Made by a program: the position numbers and the translations under genes. A stretch of 24,085 bases of DNA from a virus: IMG/VR virus record IMGVR_UViG_3300000549_000017, positions 1-24,085 of that record, one strand, 5' to 3'. Shown in pieces: positions 2,506 through 18,573 of this stretch (positions are counted from its first letter, which is position 1; the number at the start of each line of letters is the position of its first letter). The notes beneath the pieces are model-generated. The model was not told where the DNA came from. It was given only the letters and a program-made list of their open reading frames with translations, and did no database searches.

Positions 2506-3258
2506 TTATTTATCTTCGGTCTTCGTCAATGACGCGACCGTTCCGCCGTAGCGATTGTTAATCGTTTGTGTTGCGCCCGACGTGCCTTTTCCGCCTTTAC
2601 CCGATTCCTGACTTACCCATTGCTTGGTGCCGTTTCCGCCCTCGCCGCCTTCGGAACTGACAAACGTATCTGCAAATTTGCTGAAAAATGAATCGGTTTC
2701 AAAAAACTTATCGAGCTTGGTGTTGTCGGGTTTGCCGTCTTTTTCTCCGACGACATGCCAAACATCAATGTCTTTTTGTTCTTCGTCCTTTTCGACTTTC
2801 TTTTCAAATTTGAGTTTTTTGTCTTTCGCCAATTCAACGAACTTTTCGTTTAATCCGTTGGCTTTTGCGACTTCTTCAATCAGCCTTTCACCTATTACGG
2901 CTTCAAGCTGTCCTTCCAAATCGGTTTTTGCGGTTTTCAACGTCGGAATTTCTTCCACAGTCAATTCGGCAGCTTTCGCGGCGTTGCCGAGGGTTTCGAT
3001 TTCAATGTCAACTGCGACTTTTCCAGCTGGAAGTTGATTCACTTCGGCTCGCGTTTTCGCTTCATTCGCCTTTCGCAAATCTTCTTTCAGCGTTCGCTGT
3101 GTTTCTTCCAGACTTTTTTTAGCCTGAACAATCGGAACATCGTCATCGAGTTCAACTAAAATCCACTCGTCGCTCTCGTCTGCTTTTGCATACGCGCCTT
3201 TCAAATTGGCGGGAACTGCTGCTTCGGTCGGGTAACTACGTTTTAATTTATTTGGCAT
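2506..3258 (-). CDS. Probable scaffold / capsid assembly protein
   Basis: A 250-residue, very charged protein. Roughly residues 45-150 are predicted by eye to be coiled-coil (AKKSLEETQRTLKEDLRKAN, then further Glu/Lys-rich helix). The C-terminal part contains a Gly/Ser-rich low-complexity linker and ends in KTEDK. Such composition, and the place immediately before decoration and capsid genes, fits a phage scaffold. There is no visible serine-protease motif, so a protease-scaffold fusion is unlikely. It is the first gene after a promoter and hairpin leader at 3325-3447. The start has only a weak ribosome binding site (AAAAGAAT). Confidence 0.6.
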   Translation of the reverse strand: MPNKLKRSYPTEAAVPANLKGAYAKADESDEWILVELDDDVPIVQAKKSLEETQRTLKEDLRKANEAKTRAEVNQLPAGKVAVDIEIETLGNAAKAAELTVEEIPTLKTAKTDLEGQLEAVIGERLIEEVAKANGLNEKFVELAKDKKLKFEKKVEKDEEQKDIDVWHVVGEKDGKPDNTKLDKFFETDSFFSKFADTFVSSEGGEGGNGTKQWVSQESGKGGKGTSGATQTINNRYGGTVASLTKTEDK

Positions 3259-3324
3259 ATTCTTTTGAATTGTCCGGGATTGGCTTTTGCCTTCGCTGGT
3301 TTGCGCTTTTGCGCGGGAATTGAA

Positions 3325-3366
3325 AACGCCGTGTAAATCTTCGATTAAGAAGATTTACACGGCGTT
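3325..3366 (-). promoter_or_regulatory. Leader hairpin, copy A
   Basis: A perfect 18-bp inverted repeat: left arm 3325-3342 starts AACGCCGTG, six-base loop 3343-3348, right arm 3349-3366. It lies between the promoter at 3419-3447 and the scaffold-like start at 3258. No U-run follows, so it need not be a terminator. A diverged copy sits in the same relative place at 9360-9397. Confidence 0.7.
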
Positions 3367-3418
3367 AACGTGTTTGTGTCCAAGATTTTCGATGGACAAC
3401 GTAAAATTTTCAGAAAGT

Positions 3419-3447
3419 AAAGTAAACGAAAGTTTTGAAAAAAGCAA
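3419..3447 (-). promoter_or_regulatory. Putative late promoter, copy A
   Basis: On the minus strand TTGCTT (3447-3442) is separated by 17 bases from TACTTT (3424-3419). The motif is weak against the sigma-70 consensus. However, the whole block, including the shared ACTTTCGTTTAC, is conserved with the copy at 9453-9481, which is the main support. It would give a 5' leader of about 150 bases before the scaffold gene. Confidence 0.5.
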
Positions 3448-3490
3448 TAGCAAAATTGCGCTGATTCAAAATTTTTCGGTTATGCAAGTA

Positions 3491-5122: not shown

Positions 5123-6844
5123 TTAATTTTCGCTGCCTATTTCGTTTGTCATTAACGGTAAAAGTCGCTTTTGTTCTTCCTCATCATAACCGGCAATGAC
5201 CAGAATTTCTTCGGACGGAAATCCAGCTTGCTTTGCCAATATCGCAACCTCAAGCTGTTTTTTCTTCCGGGCGAGCTGGTAAAATTCACTTTGTTTCAAT
5301 CTAGACAATTCGGCTTCCGGGTCTTCAAATCCGCGCCGAGACAGATAAGCTTCCGGCGAAAGCCAACCGTCTTCTACATCTGCCTTATCGTTTTTCGTTT
5401 GTTCAGGGTCAAGCGCGCCCGCGTCAACAATCGAATTAAAATCAACGCGATATTTTTCAAATTCTTTTTCGCGTGTTCCGCCGCCGTTTCCGCTGGTCGT
5501 GTAAGCCGCCGCAAACCGCAGAGCAACTTCAATCATCCACCTGCCGCCGCCGTCAACTGTTCCTTTCGAGCGTTTCAGAGACTTATCAAATCCGGCGCGT
5601 CCTTCCTGTTTCGATATGCCGGAAGCATCCGATATATCATTCATTTGAACGTGGCTCTGATGTGCAGCGCTTCGCATAGCGAAAACGATTTTGTCTCGCT
5701 GTTGGTGGAAATTTGCAGAGTCAACAGGGTCAACGACCGTAAGCGTGGCGTTGGCATAGCCGATGATTTTTTTATGCTCGCCGACGCCTTCATAAATCGG
5801 AGTTCCGGTCAGAAAATTTGAATGTTCGCCGCCGAGGTGTAAGGTGGTTTTTTCGTATGTTCTCACCTTTGAGCCGTTCGTGCCTTCTTTGATAATCGGC
5901 TTGCTCGGTTTTTGCGTGTTCCCAAAATACCGCTCGCGGCTTCCAGCGGTTACAGTATTTTTGCCTGACATCGTCCACGTTAAATTAAGCTGTTTTTGAA
6001 GCGAGCGCATTTGCTCATCAATCAAAGGCTTTCGGGCAAATTCAAACATTAAAAGATTTCCGTTCAGATTTATCGGCTCGATTTCCGGCGGCGCGGTCGA
6101 ATCTTCGGGCGGCATATAAGCGGCAATCTGCGGCAGAGTTTTTTCGGCAAATTCCCGAAGCGAATCTTTTTCCAAAACTTTAAGCCGAGTATCGCCGTTT
6201 TCGTCCAGATAAGTTACTTCAAGCTTTTGGCTGTTGCCGCCATTTTTGACGAAAATTCCAAACGGCTCGTATTTTTCCTTTTCTTGAAATACTCCGGCGA
6301 CATCGGCTGGCAAAACTTCAAATTGAAGCATTTTCAGAGCGCCCGCAAGACTATTTTGTATTTTAATGCCGCCGGATTCGTCTCTGAATCCGTTAGGAAT
6401 AAAAGCGCGAATGACGCAACGTTCCTGCACAAGCGCAAGCGATAAAGCTTCGCGCAATGTTTCGAGCATCTTCCGAGAGTTCCACCACTCGATAAGCGCG
6501 TCAATCGCCTCTTTGCGCGTCCGGTCTTCGGTCTGGTCGTCGTCCGAATCTTTTTTGGTCGTGTCAATCAAATCCCAATCCGGCTCGCGCGCGATTGCGC
6601 CGTCAAGATGCGTTTCGACGATTGCGCCGATTTCATTTTCTGAGGTAAAAGCCGTTTGGATTTTTTCGATTATCTGCTCGCGGTTTGCGACATCCATCGG
6701 CGGCAGAGCCGGATAACCGTCGCCGTCCTGCCAATGGTCGCCGTCCAAAAATAATTTGTTGAGCTTGTAGCCTTCGGAAAGCCTGTTGCTCAATAAACTT
6801 TGTGCTTCTCTTAATTGTAGTGTTTTGCATTGTTTATACCTCAA
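5123..6844 (-). CDS. Portal protein
   Basis: A 573-residue protein directly after the terminase large subunit, where the portal is expected and of usual portal length. The N-terminus has LDGDHWQDGDGYPALP (about residues 33-48), a typical arm segment. A long acidic/helical middle follows, and a helical C-terminal region with YLSRRGFEDPEAELSRLKQ. It should form the ring at the capsid vertex through which DNA passes. The frame opens with TTG, and TTG overlaps the terminase stop as TTGA (6844-6841), a common coupling arrangement. The next ATG in frame is about 50 residues later, so I keep TTG. The call rests on order, size and pattern. Confidence 0.75.
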   Translation of the reverse strand: MRYKQCKTLQLREAQSLLSNRLSEGYKLNKLFLDGDHWQDGDGYPALPPMDVANREQIIEKIQTAFTSENEIGAIVETHLDGAIAREPDWDLIDTTKKDSDDDQTEDRTRKEAIDALIEWWNSRKMLETLREALSLALVQERCVIRAFIPNGFRDESGGIKIQNSLAGALKMLQFEVLPADVAGVFQEKEKYEPFGIFVKNGGNSQKLEVTYLDENGDTRLKVLEKDSLREFAEKTLPQIAAYMPPEDSTAPPEIEPINLNGNLLMFEFARKPLIDEQMRSLQKQLNLTWTMSGKNTVTAGSRERYFGNTQKPSKPIIKEGTNGSKVRTYEKTTLHLGGEHSNFLTGTPIYEGVGEHKKIIGYANATLTVVDPVDSANFHQQRDKIVFAMRSAAHQSHVQMNDISDASGISKQEGRAGFDKSLKRSKGTVDGGGRWMIEVALRFAAAYTTSGNGGGTREKEFEKYRVDFNSIVDAGALDPEQTKNDKADVEDGWLSPEAYLSRRGFEDPEAELSRLKQSEFYQLARKKKQLEVAILAKQAGFPSEEILVIAGYDEEEQKRLLPLMTNEIGSEN

Positions 6845-8253
6845 AAATCAAAATAGCTTTCGGTCGATTCTTCATCAAGTTCGTCGGCTTCCAGCTTCAA
6901 ATCAACTTCGGCAACCATATAGCGCGTGCAGTCGCAGCCGTGGTCATTTTCCTTAACGGGAGTTTCTTTATCTTCGTCAAAAACATACTCCTCGATTTCG
7001 TCTTCCGTGCAGAGCGGTTTTTTTGCCTCGACCAGCTCTGGATCACGTTCGACCAAAGAATCGCGCAGAAAATAAATTCCTGCTTTCCCGTTTGCTTTAA
7101 CGCGAAGACGAGATTCGACCTGCTGCAATCCACTTAAAACGTCCTTGAACGCCGGAACAGTCGGCATTCCCAAATGTCTTTCAAGCGTCGCGCGGTCTTC
7201 GGCGTCGTGGTCGCAAATGATTTTTTCCGGCAACGGCTCGGCGTCTTCGCGGATTTTTGTTCGAGTCCGCGTTTCCGGATCGTAATGCCAGCCGCAAACT
7301 TTGAGAATTTCGCGGGCGTGGTCTTCGACAAGGCGATTTGTGAAATAAATTTCGCGGATGCGGTATAGATTGCCGTCGTTATCCATCGCCCATTCCTGCC
7401 AGACAAACGGATTTCTGTAACCGAAGTCAACGACCCAAAACCTGCGCCAGTCGCGCGGAATGATGAATTTTCCGTTTTCATCGAAACGATTTATCAAATG
7501 AATGTCGGGATTGTAGGATTCCCAAATCATTCCTTCGGCTTGCACCCAAAGACCTTTGCGAAGGCGCATATAACGAACGCCAGTCAGTTTATCGAGCTTG
7601 TCGAGATACTTTTTCCCGCGCTCGGTAATTTCGCCCGTTTTCTGATTGAACAAAACGGGATTGTCTTCGTGCCGAGACTTAAACATTTTCAAAGCGTTGC
7701 GTTTTTCGCGCTGTTTCAAAAAATGTTTAGGATTTTGCGGATTGCAGTCGGCGAGCAGTTGTTGATAAGGCATCACGCCGTTTCTGAGTCGCGTCGTGAG
7801 ATTTTCCCAATCGTCTTCGGTGAGTTCGGTAGCTTCCTGAACGAAAATCATATCGTATTCGCTGGACATAATTTTCGAAGATTTATCCAGACCGCCGATA
7901 GCTACGATAGAACCGTTTTTATATTGATATTCCTGGTCTGTGGTTTGAAAGTGAACCTGTCTGCCTCTCCCGAGCGCGCCGACTGGCAAAACGTGGTTTT
8001 CGTAGGTAACAAGTGCGGTTTGGTTGAGTGAAGCGCGCGTTTTTCTTGCCAGAAGAAAACGCGCGCCGGCATATTTTTCGGCGCAGAAATGAACTTTTTC
8101 AAGACAGCCGCGCGATTTTCCCGTTCCAGCGGGTCCGTCCGTTACGACTTCATCGTCCTGGCAATAAAACACTTCGAGCGCCGCGCCAAATGGTTGATAC
8201 GGTCTTTCCTCTGGTCTAGGCGTAATCGTTTTGGAAGACGTCAGCATCGCCAT
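6841..8253 (-). CDS. terL: Terminase large subunit (DNA-packaging ATPase/nuclease)
   Basis: This is the motor that pumps DNA into the procapsid and cuts the concatemer. Numbered from the longest frame (TTG-free ATG at 8292), Walker A is GPAGTGKS (53-60) and Walker B is IFVQEA (149-154). A coupling motif ADCNPQNP lies near 181. The RNase H-like nuclease acidic residues fit D289 in WVVDFGYRNPF, D361 in CDHDAED and D454 in HGCDCTRY. I prefer the ATG at 8253, 10 bases after the small-subunit stop. The ATG at 8292 would overlap that gene by 29 bases and add only residues outside the conserved fold. Neither start has a clear ribosome binding site. Confidence 0.92.
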   Translation of the reverse strand: MAMLTSSKTITPRPEERPYQPFGAALEVFYCQDDEVVTDGPAGTGKSRGCLEKVHFCAEKYAGARFLLARKTRASLNQTALVTYENHVLPVGALGRGRQVHFQTTDQEYQYKNGSIVAIGGLDKSSKIMSSEYDMIFVQEATELTEDDWENLTTRLRNGVMPYQQLLADCNPQNPKHFLKQREKRNALKMFKSRHEDNPVLFNQKTGEITERGKKYLDKLDKLTGVRYMRLRKGLWVQAEGMIWESYNPDIHLINRFDENGKFIIPRDWRRFWVVDFGYRNPFVWQEWAMDNDGNLYRIREIYFTNRLVEDHAREILKVCGWHYDPETRTRTKIREDAEPLPEKIICDHDAEDRATLERHLGMPTVPAFKDVLSGLQQVESRLRVKANGKAGIYFLRDSLVERDPELVEAKKPLCTEDEIEEYVFDEDKETPVKENDHGCDCTRYMVAEVDLKLEADELDEESTESYFDF

Positions 8254-8263
8254 AATCAGAAAA

Positions 8264-8710
8264 CTAAACTTTAGAAGGGTCAAAACCTGCATATACTTTG
8301 GTTAGACTGACGCCGACATTTACATTCGGCTTGTCATCCGTCAGCTTTTGAATCTTGGCGAGAATCTCTAAAGCTTTCACTTTGTCTTTGAGCATTAAAA
8401 TGCATTCTTTTTCGTTCCCGTCATTGTCGTAGATAATTGAAACGTGGTCGCGCCAATCGGAATAGGCGACATCTTTCAGTTCATGTAAGGTCTGAAATTC
8501 GTTTACGCCGTTCGCCGCGGTCAGCTCGCGCATATACGTGAGAATCTCAGGTTTTCTAAGGTTTTCAAATGCAATTTGTGAACAGGTTTTTTCTGAATAT
8601 CCTGCCAGCCGTGCCGCTTCCGAGCCGTTGAATTTTGCATCAGATAGGTAATGTTCACAAAAAGATTTCTGTTTTCCGGTGAGTTTAATTTCTTCTTTTT
8701 CTTCGCTCAT
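8264..8710 (-). CDS. terS: Terminase small subunit
   Basis: A 148-residue protein whose N-terminal half matches the Terminase_2 family pattern: LTGKQKSFCEHYLSDAKFNG followed by SEAARLAGYSEKT, the DNA-recognition helix-turn-helix. The C-terminal part is helical (LKDKVKALEILAKIQKL), suited to ring assembly. It recognises the packaging site and recruits the large subunit encoded next. The ATG at 8710 overlaps the stop of the PAS gene by one base (TAATG), so the genes are translationally coupled. Confidence 0.88.
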   Translation of the reverse strand: MSEEKEEIKLTGKQKSFCEHYLSDAKFNGSEAARLAGYSEKTCSQIAFENLRKPEILTYMRELTAANGVNEFQTLHELKDVAYSDWRDHVSIIYDNDGNEKECILMLKDKVKALEILAKIQKLTDDKPNVNVGVSLTKVYAGFDPSKV

Positions 8711-9333
8711 TAAATTTTCACCATCCGCCCGATAAATTTATAGACCGTCCCGTCGGTGTTGAAGACGACGAACAACGTCTTTTCGACCTGTATCTCTTCG
8801 GTCGTTCTCTGATTAATGACACGGCATTTGATAGGTCTCAGAGTGCTCCCGGCGAGAGTCATCATCTCGTCGCGTCTTCTAACCATTTCTTGATCATCCG
8901 GATGAATACAGTTCTGCCAACCGTCGCCGACAGCTTCGCTGAGCCGCATTCCCGCCATTTCGAGCCAGGCATCGTTAAAAAATGTGCGCTTGCCCATCGA
9001 GTCCGCTTCCCAGTATCCGATATGCGAATTGTTGAGAAATTCCCTAAGAACGATTTCAACCTGCTGGAGAAGCCTTCGCGTATTCTCAAGTAGATTCTTT
9101 TCAGCCATCTGCGCCGTCAGCATGTCGCGCCATTTCAAGCGAACCTCTTCGAGCTCGCGGATGAGATTGATAATGGTGTCGGCTTCCGTTTTCTGCGTGT
9201 CGGCTTCGGTTTTATGAACGTCGGATTTAGCCTTATAAAAAAGAATCGCCGCCGTAATCCAGCCGCTCGCCGCTCCGATGAAAGCGATACCGAGTGTGAC
9301 AAGTTGAATCCAATTTTGTTTTAGCCATTCCAT
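8710..9333 (-). CDS. Membrane-anchored PAS-domain protein
   Basis: A 207-residue protein with three parts. Residues about 10-33 form a hydrophobic transmembrane helix (LVTLGIAFIGAASGWITAAI). Residues about 34-95 form a charged coiled coil with a doubled KTEADTQKTEADT motif. Residues about 97-207 match a PAS fold, with GYWEADSMGKRTFFNDAWLE, then GWQNCIHPDDQEMVRRRDEM, and a final strand VYKFIGRMVKI. PAS domains sense small molecules, redox or protein partners. No kinase, cyclase or other output domain follows, so signalling would need a partner. It is the first gene of the terminase operon behind leader copy B. A PAS protein at this place is unusual, and a holin-like use of the single helix is possible but unsupported. 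Confidence 0.75.
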   Translation of the reverse strand: MEWLKQNWIQLVTLGIAFIGAASGWITAAILFYKAKSDVHKTEADTQKTEADTIINLIRELEEVRLKWRDMLTAQMAEKNLLENTRRLLQQVEIVLREFLNNSHIGYWEADSMGKRTFFNDAWLEMAGMRLSEAVGDGWQNCIHPDDQEMVRRRDEMMTLAGSTLRPIKCRVINQRTTEEIQVEKTLFVVFNTDGTVYKFIGRMVKI

Positions 9334-9359
9334 CTGAGTTTTTGCCCTAAAATCAAAAT

Positions 9360-9397
9360 CGCCGTGTAAGTCCTCTTTTTTGAAGACCTACACAGCG
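9360..9397 (-). promoter_or_regulatory. Leader hairpin, copy B
   Basis: Arms 9360-9375 (CGCCGTGTAAGTCCTC) and 9382-9397 pair with three non-Watson-Crick positions. All three become G-U wobbles in RNA read from the minus strand and A-C mismatches in RNA read from the plus strand. The hairpin sits between promoter copy B and the PAS gene, as copy A does for the scaffold gene. Confidence 0.65.
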
Positions 9398-9452
9398 TTA
9401 GCGTGTTTTCTGCCCTAAATTAGTAGCGGGCAAACCTAAATTTTCGGATTAC

Positions 9453-9481
9453 AAGGTAAACGAAAGTTATAAAAAATGCAA
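9453..9481 (-). promoter_or_regulatory. Putative late promoter, copy B
   Basis: On the minus strand TTGCAT (9481-9476), 17 bases, then TACCTT (9458-9453), aligned with copy A at 3419-3447. The predicted leader is about 110 bases. The 9334-9660 gap contains this leader. It also contains a TTGACA at 9627-9632 that may serve the plus-strand gene at 9661, though I see no good -10 for it. Confidence 0.5.
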
Positions 9482-9660
9482 TAGAACTTTACTTTGAGCA
9501 GCATTCTGATGTATGGTGCTGACAAACTATACAGAACATTCTGCGCAATCATTCAATTCGAAGGCTTAAGTGATTTTTTAATAATTAGTCTTTGAATCCT
9601 ATTTGAAATTTCGGTGAAAACTGTTTTTGACACTTAAAAATCATTATTGATTTATAGCCT

Positions 9661-10179
9661 ATGGAAAAGAAAGATAAAAATTCAACAGCCAATCAGTTAA
9701 CTCAAAATCTTGATGCTCTTGTCGAACTTTATTGTGCTTTATTAGCAAAATCTAACCAAGAAGGCGATGGAATATGGAGTAGATTTAATGCAATGGTAAG
9801 CATAAATTTTGGTTTATTTGCCGCATTTGTTTTTGTCTTTCAAACAGATAAACCACAATTAGAACTATATCGCCCCTTATTTCTTATATTAATTTGCGGT
9901 ATTGGCATAGTTACCAGTATTTGGTCTTTCTATGTCTTGTTAAGACTATGGGGATGGCAACAATACTGGAGAAATCAACTAACGAAAGTTGAACAGGGAT
10001 TTCCTAAATCTTCTGAATGGGCAAGATCATTTTCCCCGAAAGGCGAAGAGGCTAGATTATTGCTTAATGATCCAGGGGTTAATCGCTCGCTTTGGTTTGG
10101 ATATACGCAACCATTTATTGCAATATTCGTCATTGCTTGGATTGTTCTGTTAGTCATTACCTTTTCTTCTGGTTTCTAA
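9661..10179 (+). CDS. Membrane protein of unknown function (172 aa)
   Basis: A 172-residue protein with about three membrane helices: FGLFAAFVFVF region near residues 49-62, LFLILICGIGIVTSIWSFYV near 73-92, and FIAIFVIAWIVLLVITF near 150-168. The soluble loop between the second and third is basic and Trp-rich (WGWQQYWRNQLTKVEQGF). It starts the only plus-strand pair inside the phage block, 17 bases before the epimerase gene. The start ATG has no ribosome binding site. A TTGACA lies 29-34 bases upstream, so a very short or absent leader is possible. I do not recognise the family. With its neighbour it may alter the host envelope. Confidence 0.65.
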   Translation: MEKKDKNSTANQLTQNLDALVELYCALLAKSNQEGDGIWSRFNAMVSINFGLFAAFVFVFQTDKPQLELYRPLFLILICGIGIVTSIWSFYVLLRLWGWQQYWRNQLTKVEQGFPKSSEWARSFSPKGEEARLLLNDPGVNRSLWFGYTQPFIAIFVIAWIVLLVITFSSGF

Positions 10180-10196
10180 AAATATCGGTATAACTT

Positions 10197-11180
10197 ATGG
10201 CAGAAGTTTGTTTGGTGACTGGTGGAGCTGGAAGTATTGGTTCCCATGTGGTTAGAAAGCTTTGCGACGGTAACAATGAAGTTGTTATTCTTGATAATCT
10301 TTCCGCATATCCTTTTGACTATTATCGAGAATTTGGGCTACAAAATCTTCCGGTTGAGTTAGTCCAAGGTGATTTGCGTGATAAAGCTCTACTATTAAAA
10401 TTGGTACCGAATGTTGACAGAATAATACATTTAGCGGCACTTGCAGATGTTGCTGAATGTACACGAAATCCTAAGATAGAGTTTGATATAAATGTTTTGG
10501 GAACTCAAAATCTCTTAGATGCTGCCGTAAATTCAAATATCAAGAAGTTTACCTTTATATCTTCTGCGAGCGTCTATGGCTCGCTAAGCGGACCTATTGA
10601 ACAGCGAAAATTCAATGAGAGCCAAGGTTGCTTTCCCGTTTCAAACTATGGACTGTCAAAGTTATGGGGTGAGCAACGGTGCCTACTCTACCACAAGTTT
10701 TACGGACTACCTGCTACAGCTTTAAGACTATTCAGCATTTATGGTTCTCGCCAGGTTCCGAAATTCGGCAGTCACAGTTGGTGTGTTGCAATCTTTGCAA
10801 TGCAGTTAAGATTACAGAAACCGATAACAATTTATGGGGATGGTGAACAAATTAGAGATTTTGTTCATATTAGCGATGTGGCTGACGCTATTGTTTGCGC
10901 AACCATGAGCAAGAATAGTACCGGTAAAATTTTCAATGTTGGGACTGGACTACCCACTTCAATAAACAGAATTTGCGACCTAATTTGTTTTCTAACGAAT
11001 TCGATTAGAAAAGTAGACCATTTACCATCGCGTGGAGACGATCCTTTAGGAGCATACGCCGATATAAATCAATGTAAAACAATACTAGGCTGGCAACATA
11101 AAACTGCACTCCAAGATGGAATACAAGAATATTTAACTTGGTTAGATAGCAACGAACATTTGATACCAGACTTTATATAA
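10197..11180 (+). CDS. NAD-dependent sugar-nucleotide epimerase/dehydratase (extended SDR)
   Basis: A full-length 327-residue extended short-chain dehydrogenase. The NAD-binding glycine motif is at the N-terminus (LVTGGAGSIGSH), with the ribose-binding acidic residue in VVILDNLSAYP. Other marks are HLAALADV, SSASVYG and the catalytic Tyr-Lys pair in NYGLSKLWGE. A substrate-side segment has IYGDGEQIRDFVHISDVADA followed by FNVGTG. These are typical of UDP-glucose/GlcNAc 4-epimerases and related enzymes that make precursors for surface polysaccharide. The exact substrate cannot be read from the sequence. As a metabolic gene on the opposite strand to the phage genes, it looks like a lysogenic-conversion gene that alters the host surface. 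Confidence 0.85.
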   Translation: MAEVCLVTGGAGSIGSHVVRKLCDGNNEVVILDNLSAYPFDYYREFGLQNLPVELVQGDLRDKALLLKLVPNVDRIIHLAALADVAECTRNPKIEFDINVLGTQNLLDAAVNSNIKKFTFISSASVYGSLSGPIEQRKFNESQGCFPVSNYGLSKLWGEQRCLLYHKFYGLPATALRLFSIYGSRQVPKFGSHSWCVAIFAMQLRLQKPITIYGDGEQIRDFVHISDVADAIVCATMSKNSTGKIFNVGTGLPTSINRICDLICFLTNSIRKVDHLPSRGDDPLGAYADINQCKTILGWQHKTALQDGIQEYLTWLDSNEHLIPDFI

Positions 11181-11201: not shown

Positions 11202-11417
11202 TTATCGGCGGCGAAATTTTTCATTTCTTTTCCAAACCATAGCATAACCGCATTTATCACAAACAATACGCTGCACTTTTAATGAAGGATTAAGAACTAA
11301 TCCGATAATATAAAGATATTCTCCGTCGGATTGATACAAAACGGCATTGCAAGATTTACGGGTTTCCGGCATTCGTCCTTTGCAGCGAACGTCTTTAATT
11401 TGTTTTTTGTTTTCCAT
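11202..11417 (-). CDS. Small zinc-ribbon protein (Com-like)
   Basis: A 71-residue basic protein with four cysteines: VRCKGRMPETRKSCNAVL gives the first pair, spaced more widely than usual, and IVCDKCGY gives a CxxC second pair. This resembles small phage zinc-finger proteins such as the Mu Com translational activator, with an unusual insertion between the first two cysteines. It is the last gene of the leftward early operon, 3 bases after the Toprim gene stop. A nucleic-acid-binding regulatory role is likely, but the target is unknown. Confidence 0.6.
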   Translation of the reverse strand: MENKKQIKDVRCKGRMPETRKSCNAVLYQSDGEYLYIIGLVLNPSLKVQRIVCDKCGYAMVWKRNEKFRRR

Positions 11418-11420
11418 TAT

Positions 11421-12545
11421 TCAAGCTATATATTCGACGATTGCCCTAACGTTTTCCGGCTTTAACGCTTCTTCTTCAGAGTCCATAATTGCTGCTCGTT
11501 CATCCAATAGTTCGTTGAATAAATCTAATAGATTTTCATCAGATAGAATTTTGTCCACTTTCTCGTTATAAGCATCTGCATATTCATTCCATTTCTGCGC
11601 CTTGAGTTCTCCATTGATTAAATAATCTGCCAAATCATAGCCGTTTTTCTTTTCCTCGCCGGTTGCCGCGTCCTCGATAATTCTGGAAGTGGTAACATTA
11701 AGCCCCATCCTTTGCGCGTCGATGGCTTCCCGGTTCCATAAATCGAATCCGTCGGCATCGGGAAAAAGAACGATTTTCCTGCCTCTGAACCGGCGCAGCT
11801 TTTCCGCCTTCAAATATGATTTCCCTCCGATTGCGAGCCAGACGAAGCTGTCGATAAACATCGAAGCGACCGCGGCGGTTTTCTCGGCTTCGACGACGGC
11901 GACGGGTTTCGATTTGTTCTTTTTAAAAAGATGCTCGCCGAAAAAGCAGATTTGGTGTTGAAACGTATCGGGCAGCACTTTCGCCCGTTTCAGCTCGTAA
12001 TGAATCCAGGAGGGATTTACCCGCTTATCGCGCTTCCCCGTTTTTTCATCGTAGGAGATAATCTTTCCGGTCCGGGCGCGTCCTTTGGCGTCAATCTGCC
12101 AGAAGACGGTTTTGCCCGTTCTGGTCGTTCCTATCAGGTAATCCTTAATCATCTTTCCGACTAGCTCCGAATCGATGAAAGACAAGAGGAAATTCAGGAA
12201 ACGGTTTTTGTCCGTGTGCTCTAGCGAGCGGACGACCAGCGAATTGTCAATTGTGTCGAAGTATTCGGCTCGCCCGTATTTGCTTACGGTATTTATGCTG
12301 CTCGCGGTCGTTACGTTCATTTTGTTTTTAGCGGCGACGTGTGCGCCGGCGGGGGCGCGCAGACCGAGAAACTCCTTCGGCGTCAGGTGATAGCCGCAGG
12401 ACGATTCGCGGTTGCAGCGCCCGACCGACGAGTCAAGATAATCTCCGATTTCGTCAATGTATCTGGCAAACTCGTTTTTCCTTCCGCATCGGGGGCAAGT
12501 GTAGCGGGAGCGGGAGCCTCTGTATTTTTCAAGCCGGTATTTCAT
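11421..12545 (-). CDS. Toprim-fold primase-like protein
   Basis: A roughly 374-residue protein (starting from the ATG at 12545; the frame also opens at a TTG one codon earlier). An N-terminal four-cysteine zinc motif, CPRCG with later GRCNRESSCGYH, resembles the zinc-binding head of primases. The C-terminal part contains a Toprim-like core: VAVVEAEKTAAV supplies the conserved glutamate, and RKIVLFPDADGFDLW supplies the DxD pair. The pattern resembles Toprim-like proteins (DUF6371 type) found in mobile elements. It probably primes or assists phage replication beside the helicase gene, with the iteron-like array between them. Primase activity itself is inferred. Confidence 0.7.
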   Translation of the reverse strand: MKYRLEKYRGSRSRYTCPRCGRKNEFARYIDEIGDYLDSSVGRCNRESSCGYHLTPKEFLGLRAPAGAHVAAKNKMNVTTASSINTVSKYGRAEYFDTIDNSLVVRSLEHTDKNRFLNFLLSFIDSELVGKMIKDYLIGTTRTGKTVFWQIDAKGRARTGKIISYDEKTGKRDKRVNPSWIHYELKRAKVLPDTFQHQICFFGEHLFKKNKSKPVAVVEAEKTAAVASMFIDSFVWLAIGGKSYLKAEKLRRFRGRKIVLFPDADGFDLWNREAIDAQRMGLNVTTSRIIEDAATGEEKKNGYDLADYLINGELKAQKWNEYADAYNEKVDKILSDENLLDLFNELLDERAAIMDSEEEALKPENVRAIVEYIA

Positions 12546-12595
12546 CAATTAATTTCTTTTTTTATCAGTAAAAACCTATGACGCGATTCGGAAGT

Positions 12596-12977
12596 GTCAT
12601 CTTCAGTCTGTGTAGTTTGTTAAACCCTTTAATATCAATCGTTTTACTGAAGATGTCGGGTAGTGTCATCTTCAGTCTTAACGACATCTTCAAAACGTCA
12701 TCTTCAGTAAAGAAATATCTGAAAATTTATAGACCTCTACCTACCCTTATCTTCCCCGTTTTTGAAAATTTCTCTTTCAAAACGGCTCGGACAAAGGCAG
12801 TTTTTGATGACGGGTTTCCAAAGAACTGAAGTTGACGCGCCTGAACTTGACGCTTCAAATGCGCTGAAGATGACACTCGCGGCATCTTCAAGCAACCTTC
12901 TGAAATAAAAGAGCTTACGGGATAAATTGTGCTGAAGATGACGTTTGCAAACGAGAGTCGCGCGCCGTCATCTTCAA
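12596..12977. repeat. Iteron-like array of an 11-mer, both orientations (likely origin)
   Basis: The 11-mer GTCATCTTCAG or its reverse CTGAAGATGAC occurs at 12596, 12647(-), 12665, 12683, 12697, 12826(-), 12841(-), 12864(-), 12881, 12932(-) and 12967. Five copies are exact, three have one mismatch and three have two. The left cluster is mainly plus and the right cluster mainly minus. An AT-rich centre carries an 8-bp inverted repeat (12760-12767 and 12775-12782). The array fills the 430-base gap between the primase-like and helicase genes, which suits a replication origin or operator set. Confidence 0.75.
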
Positions 12978-12978
12978 A

Positions 12979-14088
12979 TCAATTCTCGGCTTCCGAATGA
13001 TTGTCCGCCTCGGCTTCGAGAAGCTCAATCGGGAGCTTCCATTTCCATTTGACGTCGCCGCCGAAATAGCCGCCGGTCTTAAAGACGATGACGCCCAGCT
13101 TTTGCCGCGCGGTTCTTAAAGAGCGCTCGGTAATGCCCAAATCGTGAGCCTCCTTCTGCACCTCTTTGGCGCATCGCTCGCCTTCTTTTAATGCTTCGCG
13201 CAGGAACTTCATCGCCTCACGCCACCCCGCCTGATTGTCCTGGTTTTCCGGCTTGAACGCCGTGAGAATTTGCGTCGCGGTCAAATCGGACGTTCCGAGC
13301 CAGAACAAGCCTTCGTGCGTTATCTCGTAGCCCAGGGACTCGCCCTTCATCGCGTAATTGCATTTGTCGTGAATAAACGCTCCCTTCGTTCTGCTCTGCG
13401 GGTCACGCCCGATGATGACTTCGGAGCGGGCGATGGCGCGAAGGTCGATGCTGCCGAGTCCTGCGGCTCTGCCTTCGCCGCCGCCCTTCGCCTTTCCGAT
13501 GTGCCTGACCAGGATAAAAGAAGCGTTATACTGGACGGCGATTTCCGTCAGGCGCGTGGTGATCGGACGGATGGCGGTCGATAAATTGATATTCGTGTCT
13601 TTGGGAACGTAGGAAAAGAAAGGGTCGATAAAAACGAGCGTCGGCTTGATTTTCTCCATCAAATTCTCGAATCTGAGAAGCCCCATGTCGTCGAAGGTTA
13701 TCGGCTCGGTGACGGTCGCGATATTTTCGTGTTTCGCGCCGACCTGCGTCAGTCTCGGCTTGAGCGTGTCCTCTGCGTCGTCTTCCTCGGCGAGAAACAG
13801 CACTTTTCCCTCTTTGACATATTCGTCGGAGTTGGGGAATTTCCAGCCGTTCGAGACGACCGCTCCGAGGGCGGAGGTGATGTAGGATTTCCCGATGCCT
13901 TCCTCGCCCGTAAAAAGAGTAATCTTTTTTCGCGGGATATACGGAAACCAGAGCCATTCGACGGATTTCGCCTCGACGTCGCTCAGCCACGCGAACTTTA
14001 CCCCGCCGTCCCCGTTTTCCGTGAGACGCTCCGCTTCCGCCTTAATTTCTTCGATATTGATTGCGCTCTTACCGTCGCCAGCTCCCAT
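12979..14088 (-). CDS. RecA-like hexameric replicative helicase (AAA_25/RepA type)
   Basis: A 369-residue ATPase of the AAA_25 / plasmid RepA helicase type. Walker A is FTGEEGIGKSY (about 59-69), VLFLAEEDD follows, and Walker B is LVFIDPF (about 151-157). The conserved histidine segment is LVRHIGKAKGGGEGRAAGLG (about 193-212), then a DLRAIARSEVIIGRD strand. The C-terminal 70 residues look like a winged helix (ITERSLRTARQKLG). It should unwind DNA at the phage origin. Its stop codon abuts the last 11-mer of the repeat array. The ATG has GGGGAG upstream. Confidence 0.82.
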   Translation of the reverse strand: MGAGDGKSAINIEEIKAEAERLTENGDGGVKFAWLSDVEAKSVEWLWFPYIPRKKITLFTGEEGIGKSYITSALGAVVSNGWKFPNSDEYVKEGKVLFLAEEDDAEDTLKPRLTQVGAKHENIATVTEPITFDDMGLLRFENLMEKIKPTLVFIDPFFSYVPKDTNINLSTAIRPITTRLTEIAVQYNASFILVRHIGKAKGGGEGRAAGLGSIDLRAIARSEVIIGRDPQSRTKGAFIHDKCNYAMKGESLGYEITHEGLFWLGTSDLTATQILTAFKPENQDNQAGWREAMKFLREALKEGERCAKEVQKEAHDLGITERSLRTARQKLGVIVFKTGGYFGGDVKWKWKLPIELLEAEADNHSEAEN

Positions 14089-14163: not shown

Positions 14164-14541
14164 TTAAGTCGCCCGGCTGATAATCGATCGTTTCCTTTTA
14201 ACCGGTTTGGCTTTAGCCCTTTCCTGAGCCGCCTTGTCCTTTGCCGTGCGCCTATATTCGCGCCACGCGGCGTCGACTTCCCGCTTGATAAATTTCAAAG
14301 GCTTTCTCGATACGCGCGGAATTTTATGCGTTCCGGCTTCCCCTCTTTGAACCGCGCGCTCCGAGCAGCCGAATTTAAATGCAACATAATCTTTAGTAAC
14401 AGTGGCGTTTGGAGGTAAAGCCTCAAAATAAGCGATTTCTTCCGGCGTAAATAACTTTGACTTTTTTTCAGACTTAAGCCGTTTCACCTCTACTTCAAGG
14501 TTCTCGATTCTGGCTAAAAGTTTTAGTTCAAAATCAGTCAT
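14164..14541 (-). CDS. Coiled-coil / helix-turn-helix protein (hybrid gene)
   Basis: A 125-residue basic protein. Residues 1-30 are a coiled coil, and residues about 40-95 are an excisionase- or MerR-like DNA-binding unit (NATVTKDYVAFKFGCSERAV, then GTHKIPRVSRKPLKFIKREV). The tail is Lys/Arg-rich. The first 54 residues are about half identical to the separate 50-residue fragment at 15066-15218, and the two part exactly after KDYVA. The 5' half of the gene is AT-rich with AT-ending codons (for example GTTACTAAAGATTATGTTGC), while the 3' half is GC-rich like its neighbours. This suggests a hybrid gene reconstituted when the HNH gene next door inserted. DNA binding is inferred from the fold. Confidence 0.7.
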   Translation of the reverse strand: MTDFELKLLARIENLEVEVKRLKSEKKSKLFTPEEIAYFEALPPNATVTKDYVAFKFGCSERAVQRGEAGTHKIPRVSRKPLKFIKREVDAAWREYRRTAKDKAAQERAKAKPVKRKRSIISRAT

Positions 14542-15065: not shown

Positions 15066-15218
15066 TCAAGCGACGTAATCCTTGCCGACCGTCGCCGTCG
15101 CGGGAAGCCGTTCGAATTCATTGGCAATGTCTGCCGCCGATTTTTCGGACTTCAAACGCTCGACCGTTTTTTCGAGGTCGTCGAGCCGCTTCCAGACTTT
15201 TTCTTCAAATTCACTCAT
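15066..15218 (-). pseudogene. Truncated 5' half of the coiled-coil/HTH gene, cut by the HNH insertion
   Basis: A 50-codon frame from the ATG at 15218 to a TGA at 15066. The product starts MSEFEEKVWKRLDDLEKTVE and ends LPATATVGKDYVA. It aligns along its length with residues 1-54 of the 14164-14541 protein, sharing roughly 28 residues including RLKSEK and KDYVA, and stops exactly where the HTH should begin. Codons are GC-rich like the older phage genes. It overlaps the stop of the preceding gene by 8 bases, so it may still be translated. I read it as the original 5' end of the gene, displaced by the endonuclease. It could alternatively be an independent small paralogue. Confidence 0.65.
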
Positions 15219-15660
15219 CGCCGGATTGTTTGACCTTTTCGTAAAATTTCCTGACCGCGCTTAAAAGCTCGAATCCTTCTTTTTCGAGTTCGGCTTTGCT
15301 GTATCCGCCTTTCAAATTGAGCTTGACCAAATCGCCGAGCTCGTCGAAAATCTTTTCAATCAATTCGGCGAACTGCTCTTTTAAGGTCGGCTCGTCTTTG
15401 CGGTGACGGCTTCGCTCGCGTTCGAGAATTATCCAGAGACGCTCTTCCATTTCCGGCGAGAACTTCATCGCCGCCTGCAAAATTCTCATCACCTCGATAA
15501 ACGGGTTCGGGCGGCGCGCGTCCGATACGTTGAACTGGCGCGAAAGCCCGGACGAGTCGTTTTCCTTCATATAGCCGGAAATTCCGCTGACCGCGCCGGG
15601 GTTATCCTTGAAGAGCATATAAAGCTCCATTTCCGCTTTATCGAAATCGTGTTTTTTCAT
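15211..15660 (-). CDS. Hypothetical helical early protein (149 aa)
   Basis: A soluble, helical, charged protein. I use the ATG at 15660 because AGG lies 7 bases upstream, and the longer frame only adds six residues from a TTG. The N-terminal third has MKKHDFDKAEMELYMLFKDN, and the middle has FIEVMRILQAAMKFSPEMEE, LWIILERERSRHRKDE. The C-terminal half is likely coiled (LKEQFAELIEKIFDELGDLV). It belongs to the leftward early operon between the winged-helix gene and the interrupted HTH gene. I recognise no family. Confidence 0.6.
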   Translation of the reverse strand: MKKHDFDKAEMELYMLFKDNPGAVSGISGYMKENDSSGLSRQFNVSDARRPNPFIEVMRILQAAMKFSPEMEERLWIILERERSRHRKDEPTLKEQFAELIEKIFDELGDLVKLNLKGGYSKAELEKEGFELLSAVRKFYEKVKQSGDE

Positions 15661-15683
15661 AAACAAACCTGAGAACAAAAATT

Positions 15684-15757: not shown

Positions 15758-16156
15758 TTAACTGACTGCCGCGAGACTTTCGGTTTCCAGACACGGCGCG
15801 CAGGCGCAAATGCCGAGATAACAAATTGAGCCGTCGGGAAAATCCTTGTAGGGCGCCGTAAAATTGCAAAAGCTGCATACCCTTTCTTTTTCTTCGACGG
15901 GAAGCCGCCAGACGCCGCAGTGACTCGCAAAGCCTTCAATCCCGATATAATCGGACGTGCGGACTGACTTGACGGGAGGCTCGACGCACTCGACTAAGCC
16001 GAGCGTTTCGAGCCTGCGAAGATGGCGAATCGTCGTCGTCCGGTTCGCGCCGATTATTCCGACCGAGCTTATGCCTCCGCGCGACTCAAGGAAATCGAGA
16101 ATCTCCCTGCCCGTCGGCGAAATCTTTGGTTTTTGTGTCTGCATAGTAGGGTTCAT
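15758..16156 (-). CDS. Winged-helix regulator with C-terminal zinc motif
   Basis: The first ~70 residues fit a winged helix-turn-helix of MarR/GntR-like form: ISPTGREILDFLESRGGISS, NRTTTIRHLRRLETLGLVEC. The C-terminal part holds cysteines in CSFCNFTAPYKDFPDG followed by CYLGICACAPC, a probable zinc site. Likely a DNA-binding regulator of the early operon. Two ATGs (16156 and 16144) are possible and neither has a ribosome binding site. The frame also opens upstream with a TTG. A 60-base imperfect palindrome covers the region just before the start, so the start may lie in or right after a hairpin. This could make expression structure-dependent. Confidence 0.65.
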   Translation of the reverse strand: MNPTMQTQKPKISPTGREILDFLESRGGISSVGIIGANRTTTIRHLRRLETLGLVECVEPPVKSVRTSDYIGIEGFASHCGVWRLPVEEKERVCSFCNFTAPYKDFPDGSICYLGICACAPCLETESLAAVS

Positions 16157-16210
16157 TGACTCAATCAAGGGCAAGGAATCTAGTCCCTGCCCTTTGTTCA
16201 ATCAATGAAC
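16151..16210. promoter_or_regulatory. 60-base imperfect palindrome between two early genes
   Basis: Pairing each base with its mirror across 16151-16210 gives 23 of 30 complementary positions, including a perfect 9-bp outer stem (GTTCATTGA with TCAATGAAC) and a 7-bp inner block (AAGGGCA with TGCCCTT). It begins 2 bases after the stop of the gene ending at 16213 and overlaps the candidate start of the next gene. It could be a terminator-attenuator or an operator. Confidence 0.6.
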
Positions 16211-17934: not shown

Positions 17935-18573
17935 TTAAACTTCAATCCCCGCCGCCGAACCTGAAAGTCGCGTCATCAGGTTTCGTATCGGCTCTAATTC
18001 GTGCCTGTCCGTTTGCTCGATTGGTTGCGGAATGCCGCTAAACGCATCCCGCAGTACTTCCGCCTGGTGCTTGCACACGCGATTTCTTTTTGAAAAGTCG
18101 CTACACTCGCAGGAGGCAAAAACCTTACCTTTAATAGTTTTCAAAATAACCCTGTATTCTGTCCGGCTGTCGTGATTGACGACCACGAACGCATCCGGTT
18201 CGAAGTCGTGGAAGACTTCCAAATTGTTTTTATCGGCTCGCGCTATCGCTCCGGTAAATTCTCTTTCGCGGTCGTTCAGACAAATCAAAAGCGTTTCCGC
18301 AGTTTTCTCGTTTGCGACCAGAAGAACGTCGTCGCTTAGAATTCTGCGCCCGTCGGTGCAAATCATCTCGACGATGCCGTCCGAGAAGCGGTTTAATTCT
18401 TTGACCGTGTGCCAGGTCTTTTCTCTCGCCTCGTCGCGTCCCGCCCACGTCGAGTTGAAAACGAGAATGTGACTTCCCTTTTGTATTGAATCGAGTCGTT
18501 CGCGTTTAGTTCGTGCCGCTTGGGTTAAGTTGTCAATAAATCTGTCGTAATCGTTTGCGTTAAAATCTGCCAT
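17935..18573 (-). CDS. SWIM zinc-finger protein (212 aa)
   Basis: A 212-residue protein with a SWIM-type zinc motif near residues 152-170: CECSDFSKRNRVCKHQ fits CxC...CxH. SWIM domains bind zinc and mediate nucleic-acid or protein binding in bacteria. The N-terminal two thirds have no clear motif and look mixed helical and beta. It is the first gene of the leftward early operon, with TAGGAGAA before the ATG. It lies about 45 bases after a predicted start site at the XRE-controlled promoter (18625-18653), so it should be among the first genes expressed on induction. Its partner is unknown. Confidence 0.75.
   Translation of the reverse strand: MADFNANDYDRFIDNLTQAARTKRERLDSIQKGSHILVFNSTWAGRDEAREKTWHTVKELNRFSDGIVEMICTDGRRILSDDVLLVANEKTAETLLICLNDREREFTGAIARADKNNLEVFHDFEPDAFVVVNHDSRTEYRVILKTIKGKVFASCECSDFSKRNRVCKHQAEVLRDAFSGIPQPIEQTDRHELEPIRNLMTRLSGSAAGIEV

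Follow-up and report, generated by a model that had tools for sequence, protein, structure and literature searches.

In phage lambda, the pR′-tR′ module yields a short RNA by default, read-through occurs via the antiterminator Q, and tR′ lies about 194 nt from pR′. The same logic holds for StxS, which arises from pR′-tR′, and for IsrK of Gifsy-1, where transcripts that terminate early are short RNAs and those that read through are mRNAs. Phage HK022 uses the RNAs putL and putR, which are ~70 nt long with irregular stems, belong to early promoters and bind RNA polymerase (PMC9378689). Attenuator regulons, in which 5′ premature terminators are shared by several operons, have also been described (Naville and Gautheret 2010, PMC2965389), and the mycobacteriophages of cluster K carry extended start-associated sequences (ESAS), a repeated non-coding element with an inverted repeat before several genes (PMC3203893).

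We analysed a linear virus record of 24,085 bases (IMGVR_UViG_3300000549_000017, hereafter the window) that contains two similar units of ~130 nt, A and B, both on the minus strand. Like the lambdoid late module (pR′, tR′ and Q), each unit combines a promoter-like element, a short leader and a terminator-like hairpin before late genes, so that a short RNA would be the expected default product. Unlike that module, the unit is present in two copies before two late operons, the end of its long hairpin P2 lies about 90 nt past the inferred start, and it includes a conserved small hairpin, P1. Moreover, the Q21 and lambda-Q families (PF06530 and PF03589) had no match in the three records searched (G000, G001 and G002), which may be incomplete; the search for Q82 (PF06323) was uninformative, with no signal in the controls. 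The spacer between the promoter boxes was partly conserved, which is only a hint of a Q-binding element or of a sigma-dependent pause close to the promoter.

The HK022 put system also has two similar RNA elements per genome near promoters, each with two stem-loops (~90 nt here), but, compared with its published description (PMC9378689), P2 is a regular helix of 16-18 bp with a T-tract and stands before late genes. Since no Q protein turned up and the architecture is not that of put, we do not class the leader as a member of either system. As in attenuator regulons, a premature terminator before non-homologous genes suggests common control, whereas here the element belongs to one phage lineage, brings a promoter-like region with it and has a terminator stem of very high stability. 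In comparison with StxS and IsrK, the RNA is predicted from sequence, has two copies and differs in structure. Unlike ESAS, whose many copies are tied to a 13-bp translation-start motif, the present element occurs twice and includes a promoter-like region and a T-tract.

Anatomy and conservation of the two units

Both units follow the order TTGCNN, 17 nt, TACYTT, hairpin P1, linker AAACACGYTAACGC, hairpin P2 (16-18 bp) and T-tract, and a sequence block, ACTTTCGTTTAC, is common to A and B. Unit A (3323-3450, minus strand) extends from the promoter-like region to the T-tract and lies upstream of a scaffold-like gene. Its -35-like box TTGCTT (3442-3447) shares an invariant TTGC with the three other leaders introduced below, the -10-like box TACTTT (3419-3424) lies 17 nt past it and is a weak consensus match, and the start site would fall at about 3410-3413. 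Then follow P1 (TGTCC...GGACA, 3377-3398), in which one pair is U-A where the other leaders have C-G, and P2 (3325-3366), with 18 perfect Watson-Crick pairs and the loop TTAATC. A terminator-like TTTT (3323-3326) comes after the P2 core and is followed by CAATT.

Unit B (9355-9484, minus strand) lies upstream of the PAS-TerS-TerL-portal genes and has the boxes TTGCAT (9476-9481) and TACCTT (9453-9458), with a putative start at about 9445-9448. Its P1 (TTTGCCC...GGGCAGA) occupies 9409-9434, and its P2 (9358-9399) has a 16-pair core at 9360-9397 and the loop AAAAAA, with three wobbles that are G-U when read as minus-strand RNA; the T-tract (ATTTTGATTTT) follows P2 at 9355-9358.

A DNA search of the record with leader A recovered the B copy (E 3.5e-16, 73% over 144 nt), and a covariance model, R1, scored A at 149.8 bits and B at 165.6 bits, both being part of the model's input. 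The search and a re-reading of the DNA bore out the position and sequence that the earlier note had given for the two copies, including TTGC(T/A)T, 17 bases, TAC(T/C)TT and the shared ACTTTCGTTTAC; P1, the T-tract directly after P2 on the leader strand and the limits of the paralogous similarity are additions to it. In a windowed alignment, similarity between A and B began at the -35-like TTGC and faded just past the T-tract in both phages that carry the units, and identity was low outside this stretch, so as read from sequence the repeated element is a putative promoter-to-terminator cassette. The minus-strand leaders folded better than all 200 dinucleotide shuffles, with z-scores of -7.05 (A) and -4.94 (B). 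The element is a real and probably functional RNA leader.

The second phage came from a search of IMG/VR with TerL, which gave 77 loci. Two of these (L004 and L005) have both units in the same two places as the window; they are identical over 19,104 bases, come from two metagenomes and represent one related phage, whose TerL is 85% identical to that of the window. The 39.7 kb record of L004 had exactly two strong leader-strand matches to the covariance model, which was built partly from these two. A and B of the window and of this phage are the four leaders compared below.

All genes following the units are on the minus strand. The first gene after A encodes a scaffold-like protein (2506-3258), assigned by position with no family match and 58% identical in the related phage. 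Unit B is followed by a gene for a membrane-PAS protein (8710-9333), with its ATG about 24 nt past P2, and then by TerS (8264-8710), TerL (6841-8292) and a portal-like protein (5123-6844), also assigned by position with no family match and 61% identical in the related phage. In that phage the first gene after B is different, the capsid protein has 26% identity in a global alignment and belongs to a different family, and the two genes that lie between portal and A in the window are missing, so that unit A stands ~26 nt past the portal gene. Because these adjacent genes are swapped or absent while the units, the scaffold-like and portal-like proteins and TerL are shared, the leader, judged by the two phages' sequences, is more constant than its neighbours. 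Recent gene conversion between A and B was not clearly supported, as the copies within a phage were overall no more alike than the orthologues.

Further searches covered a wider set of phages. R1 searched over 88 sources (the window, IMG/VR loci and 11 genome contigs) gave no further convincing match, a hit in L066 at E 3.5 being treated as chance. Pattern scans of IMG/VR DNA for the linker with lower stem, P1 and P2 found no phage besides the two contigs of the related phage, with the P1 pattern so strict that it missed even these. Searches with the portal, scaffold and replication proteins matched only L004 and L005, the capsid protein search returned no homologous locus, and annotated phages had no leader match. 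Rfam 15 had no match in the window at the gathering score, and sub-threshold matches to the P2 of A were to unrelated hairpin families.

Selection on the leader RNA

The earlier note had proposed that selection acts on the hairpin as RNA, in the transcribed strand, with a lack of covariation in homologous leaders as the result that would speak against it. The set available for this comparison consists of four leaders from two phages, which is too few for R-scape-type significance. Across P1 and P2, 97.9% of the cells were standard pairs, and four of the 24 pairs were changed on both sides, compared with 1.2 expected from shuffles, of which 2 of 500 reached as high a count. Controls with slid partners had 0-1 such pairs. 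Covariation is thus present, in four sequences only.

A second signal came from the wobbles. At the varying pairs of P2 there are three wobbles in B of the window and four in B of the related phage, and read in the leader sense all seven are G-U rather than A-C (sign test P 0.008, or 0.016 if the one wobble that the two B copies have in common counts once). The three changed pairs in B of the window were found as the earlier note had stated, with G-U in RNA of the minus strand and A-C in the opposite one, and the leader strand of the B copies folded at -37.8 kcal/mol compared with -22.9 kcal/mol for the opposite strand (window) and at -38.6 compared with -24.5 kcal/mol (related phage). Together the double changes and this bias are good evidence for the proposed selection within the four leaders. 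The loop and upper stem of P2 vary, a pattern as in terminators, and the lower stem and the linker are conserved in sequence.

In all four leaders, folds of truncated transcripts that still lack the 3′ arm of P2 predicted pairing between the linker and the 5′ arm. In this alternative helix 19 of 20 cells pair, no pair is changed on both sides and the helix is weak beside P2. In these models the linker is a possible antiterminator, although, with a weak helix and no double change, it could hardly prevent termination alone. Leader-peptide attenuation was rejected: in the B copies a frame starting with TTG (LPxTNLGQ...) closes just short of P2, but in A of the window it stops inside P2 and in A of the related phage it stays open, and there is no ATG start.

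Proposed conditional termination and its alternatives

The number of T residues in the 9 nt past the stem core was 6, 6, 8 and 7 on the leader strand of the four leaders, compared with 4, 4, 3 and 5 on the other strand, and in all four P2 and its T-tract lie between the putative promoter and the first gene. In both phage records, the P2 hairpins of the two units rank with the longest terminator-like hairpins. In a simple scan of the window P2 of B was the strongest terminator and P2 of A was not listed; the tract of the latter is short (TTTTCAATT). The earlier note had suggested that the hairpin could set ratio or timing or be a protein target; selection at the RNA level stands, whereas the T-tract had been missed, and because P2 ends in this tract we now favour a conditional terminator over those roles. 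That P2 instead protects the late mRNAs against decay from the 5′ end, or is cut by RNase III as a step in their processing, with P1 as a companion and an incidental T-tract, strikes us as rather unlikely: a very stable stem of 16-18 bp near the inferred 5′ end, its conservation in the RNA sense with a variable loop and the 5′ position in both late operons would suit such a role, but the T-tract that directly adjoins P2 in all four leaders, and on a single strand, would be left unexplained.

The claim of a duplicated late promoter was borne out in part, being plausible by conservation and position but poorly matched to consensus. At 17-nt spacing the boxes have 6-7 of 12 matches to the sigma-70 consensus, which is poor; sites scoring at least 7 are common (1032 in the window). 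No sigma-70 match above background was found for the boxes, which were absent from the promoter-scan list of the window. We therefore base the promoter reading on position and on the fact that all four copies keep TTGC and the 17-nt spacing, not on consensus. A Bacteroidota-type promoter, TTTG-N19-TAnnTTTG, was also considered and rejected, since its 7-8 of 10 matches are common and the best site in A of the window is out of register. Shine-Dalgarno-like sites accompany many genes (9 of 22 and 19 of 28), and so many argue against a Bacteroidota host.

Because ~24 nt between P2 of B and the PAS ATG leave no room for a further promoter, the packaging mRNA must cross P2, whichever promoter it comes from. 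It could be argued that P2 is an ordinary or partial terminator for transcripts of the upstream operon, in which case TTGC...TACYTT would be no regulated promoter or P2 would be unregulated. The position of unit A ~26 nt past portal in the related phage, where P2 would end the packaging transcript, and the terminator-like hairpins inside structural operons of distant TerL relatives fit this account, which we consider unlikely all the same, since the repeat starts at a -35-like TTGC that a bare terminator would not need, and B of the window has plus-strand genes upstream and its own gene 24 nt past P2. A promoter-to-terminator unit with P1, an unpaired linker and a terminator, present in two copies, could also be a small-RNA gene whose ~90-nt product acts in trans, or a by-product of attenuation reused like StxS or IsrK. 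This is improbable as the main explanation, because in both phages the units occupy the starts of the same two late operons and B leaves no space for a separate promoter before its gene, though it is compatible with a conditional terminator.

The limits of the repeat, the one-way T-tract, the long P2 and the forced crossing of P2 in B together look like a promoter-proximal conditional terminator. We give roughly even chances to the view that the units are conditional terminators (attenuators) like lambda pR′-tR′, present twice and co-regulating the packaging and capsid operons. The anatomy and its duplication, the presence of both units at matching places in a second phage, the covariation, the strand bias and the directional T-tract are directly seen, and from them we infer promoter activity, termination, antitermination and timing. 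Each unit would have three parts: a promoter, a short leader RNA (about 85-90 nt) that contains P1 and the conserved, unpaired linker, and an intrinsic terminator formed by P2 and the T-tract. During early infection or lysogeny most transcripts would stop at P2, leaving a short RNA; at a later stage RNA polymerase would cross P2 and read into the packaging genes (B) and the scaffold and head genes (A), helped by a factor that acts on P1 and the linker or close to the promoter. With two copies, one signal could switch both operons together.

Candidates for the trans factor are conserved early proteins encoded at 11202-11417, 14164-14541, 15211-15678, 15758-16201 and 17935-18573, which are 51-81% identical between the phages. 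There is a small chance that the leader is a new family of phage RNA, in a phage of a little-studied host, in which P1 and the linker either act directly on RNA polymerase, as a put-like and self-sufficient antiterminator for their own terminator, or recruit a non-Q antiterminator protein. Very improbable is a leader that serves chiefly as a site for a phage protein controlling translation or as a put-like RNA making polymerase termination-resistant: linker AAACACGNTAACGC and the lower stem are conserved beyond pairing needs, a 71-aa Cys-rich gene (11202-11417, 81% identical) ends the early operon near B and HK022 likewise has two put RNAs at two promoters (PMC9378689), but the stems of the put RNAs, which belong to early promoters, are irregular, P2 by contrast forms a regular helix that runs into a T-tract, and the 71-aa protein has no family match above cut-off.

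If the units are conditional terminators, this phage lineage would govern two late operons by repeating one terminator switch, and not from a single late promoter. This would explain the coordination of packaging and capsid genes despite swapped neighbours (the first B gene and the major capsid gene), and it would extend late-gene attenuation beyond well-studied model phages.

Other elements around the units

Downstream of A only, three tiny hairpins with AAAA loops (3259-3314, minus strand) lie in tandem, 21-25 nt apart: GCGC-AAAA-GCGC (3303-3314), GGC-AAAA-GCC (3282-3291) and ATTC-AAAA-GAAT (3259-3270), the last adjoining the scaffold-like ATG. They are kept in the related phage (G001, 14625-14683), and none of 60 shuffles had such a cluster. 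The scaffold-like gene has no Shine-Dalgarno-like site, and the trio is a possible translational operator. The major capsid genes of the two phages, at 796-1869 of the window (phrog_29) and 11985-13034 of G001 (a weak Phage_cap_E match), belong to different families.

Plus-strand genes for an 8xMP-family membrane protein and a nucleotide-sugar epimerase (9661-11180) separate the early operon of the window from unit B and had no match in the related phage. The 71-aa Cys-rich protein (11202-11417, minus strand) is zinc-ribbon-like and is encoded by the last early-operon gene upstream of B in both phages.

In distant TerL relatives, a conserved terminator-like hairpin, GGGGCGCTGTCTCTCT..AGAGGGATAGCGCCCC-TTTTTGATC, stands 4-14 nt before a reading frame of ~825 aa (L069 15652-15685, L071 14784-14819, L076 11610-11645 and L079 4661-4696). 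Repeated inverted repeats of the GAAGATGACACT type, which are origin-like, occupy the interval from the DUF6371 gene to the AAA_25 (replication-like) gene in both phages (window 12578-12951, L004 5580-5825). Finally, a long intergenic palindrome (window 16151-16209, L004 2933-2993) is similar in the two phages and forms a 28-pair stem in L004.
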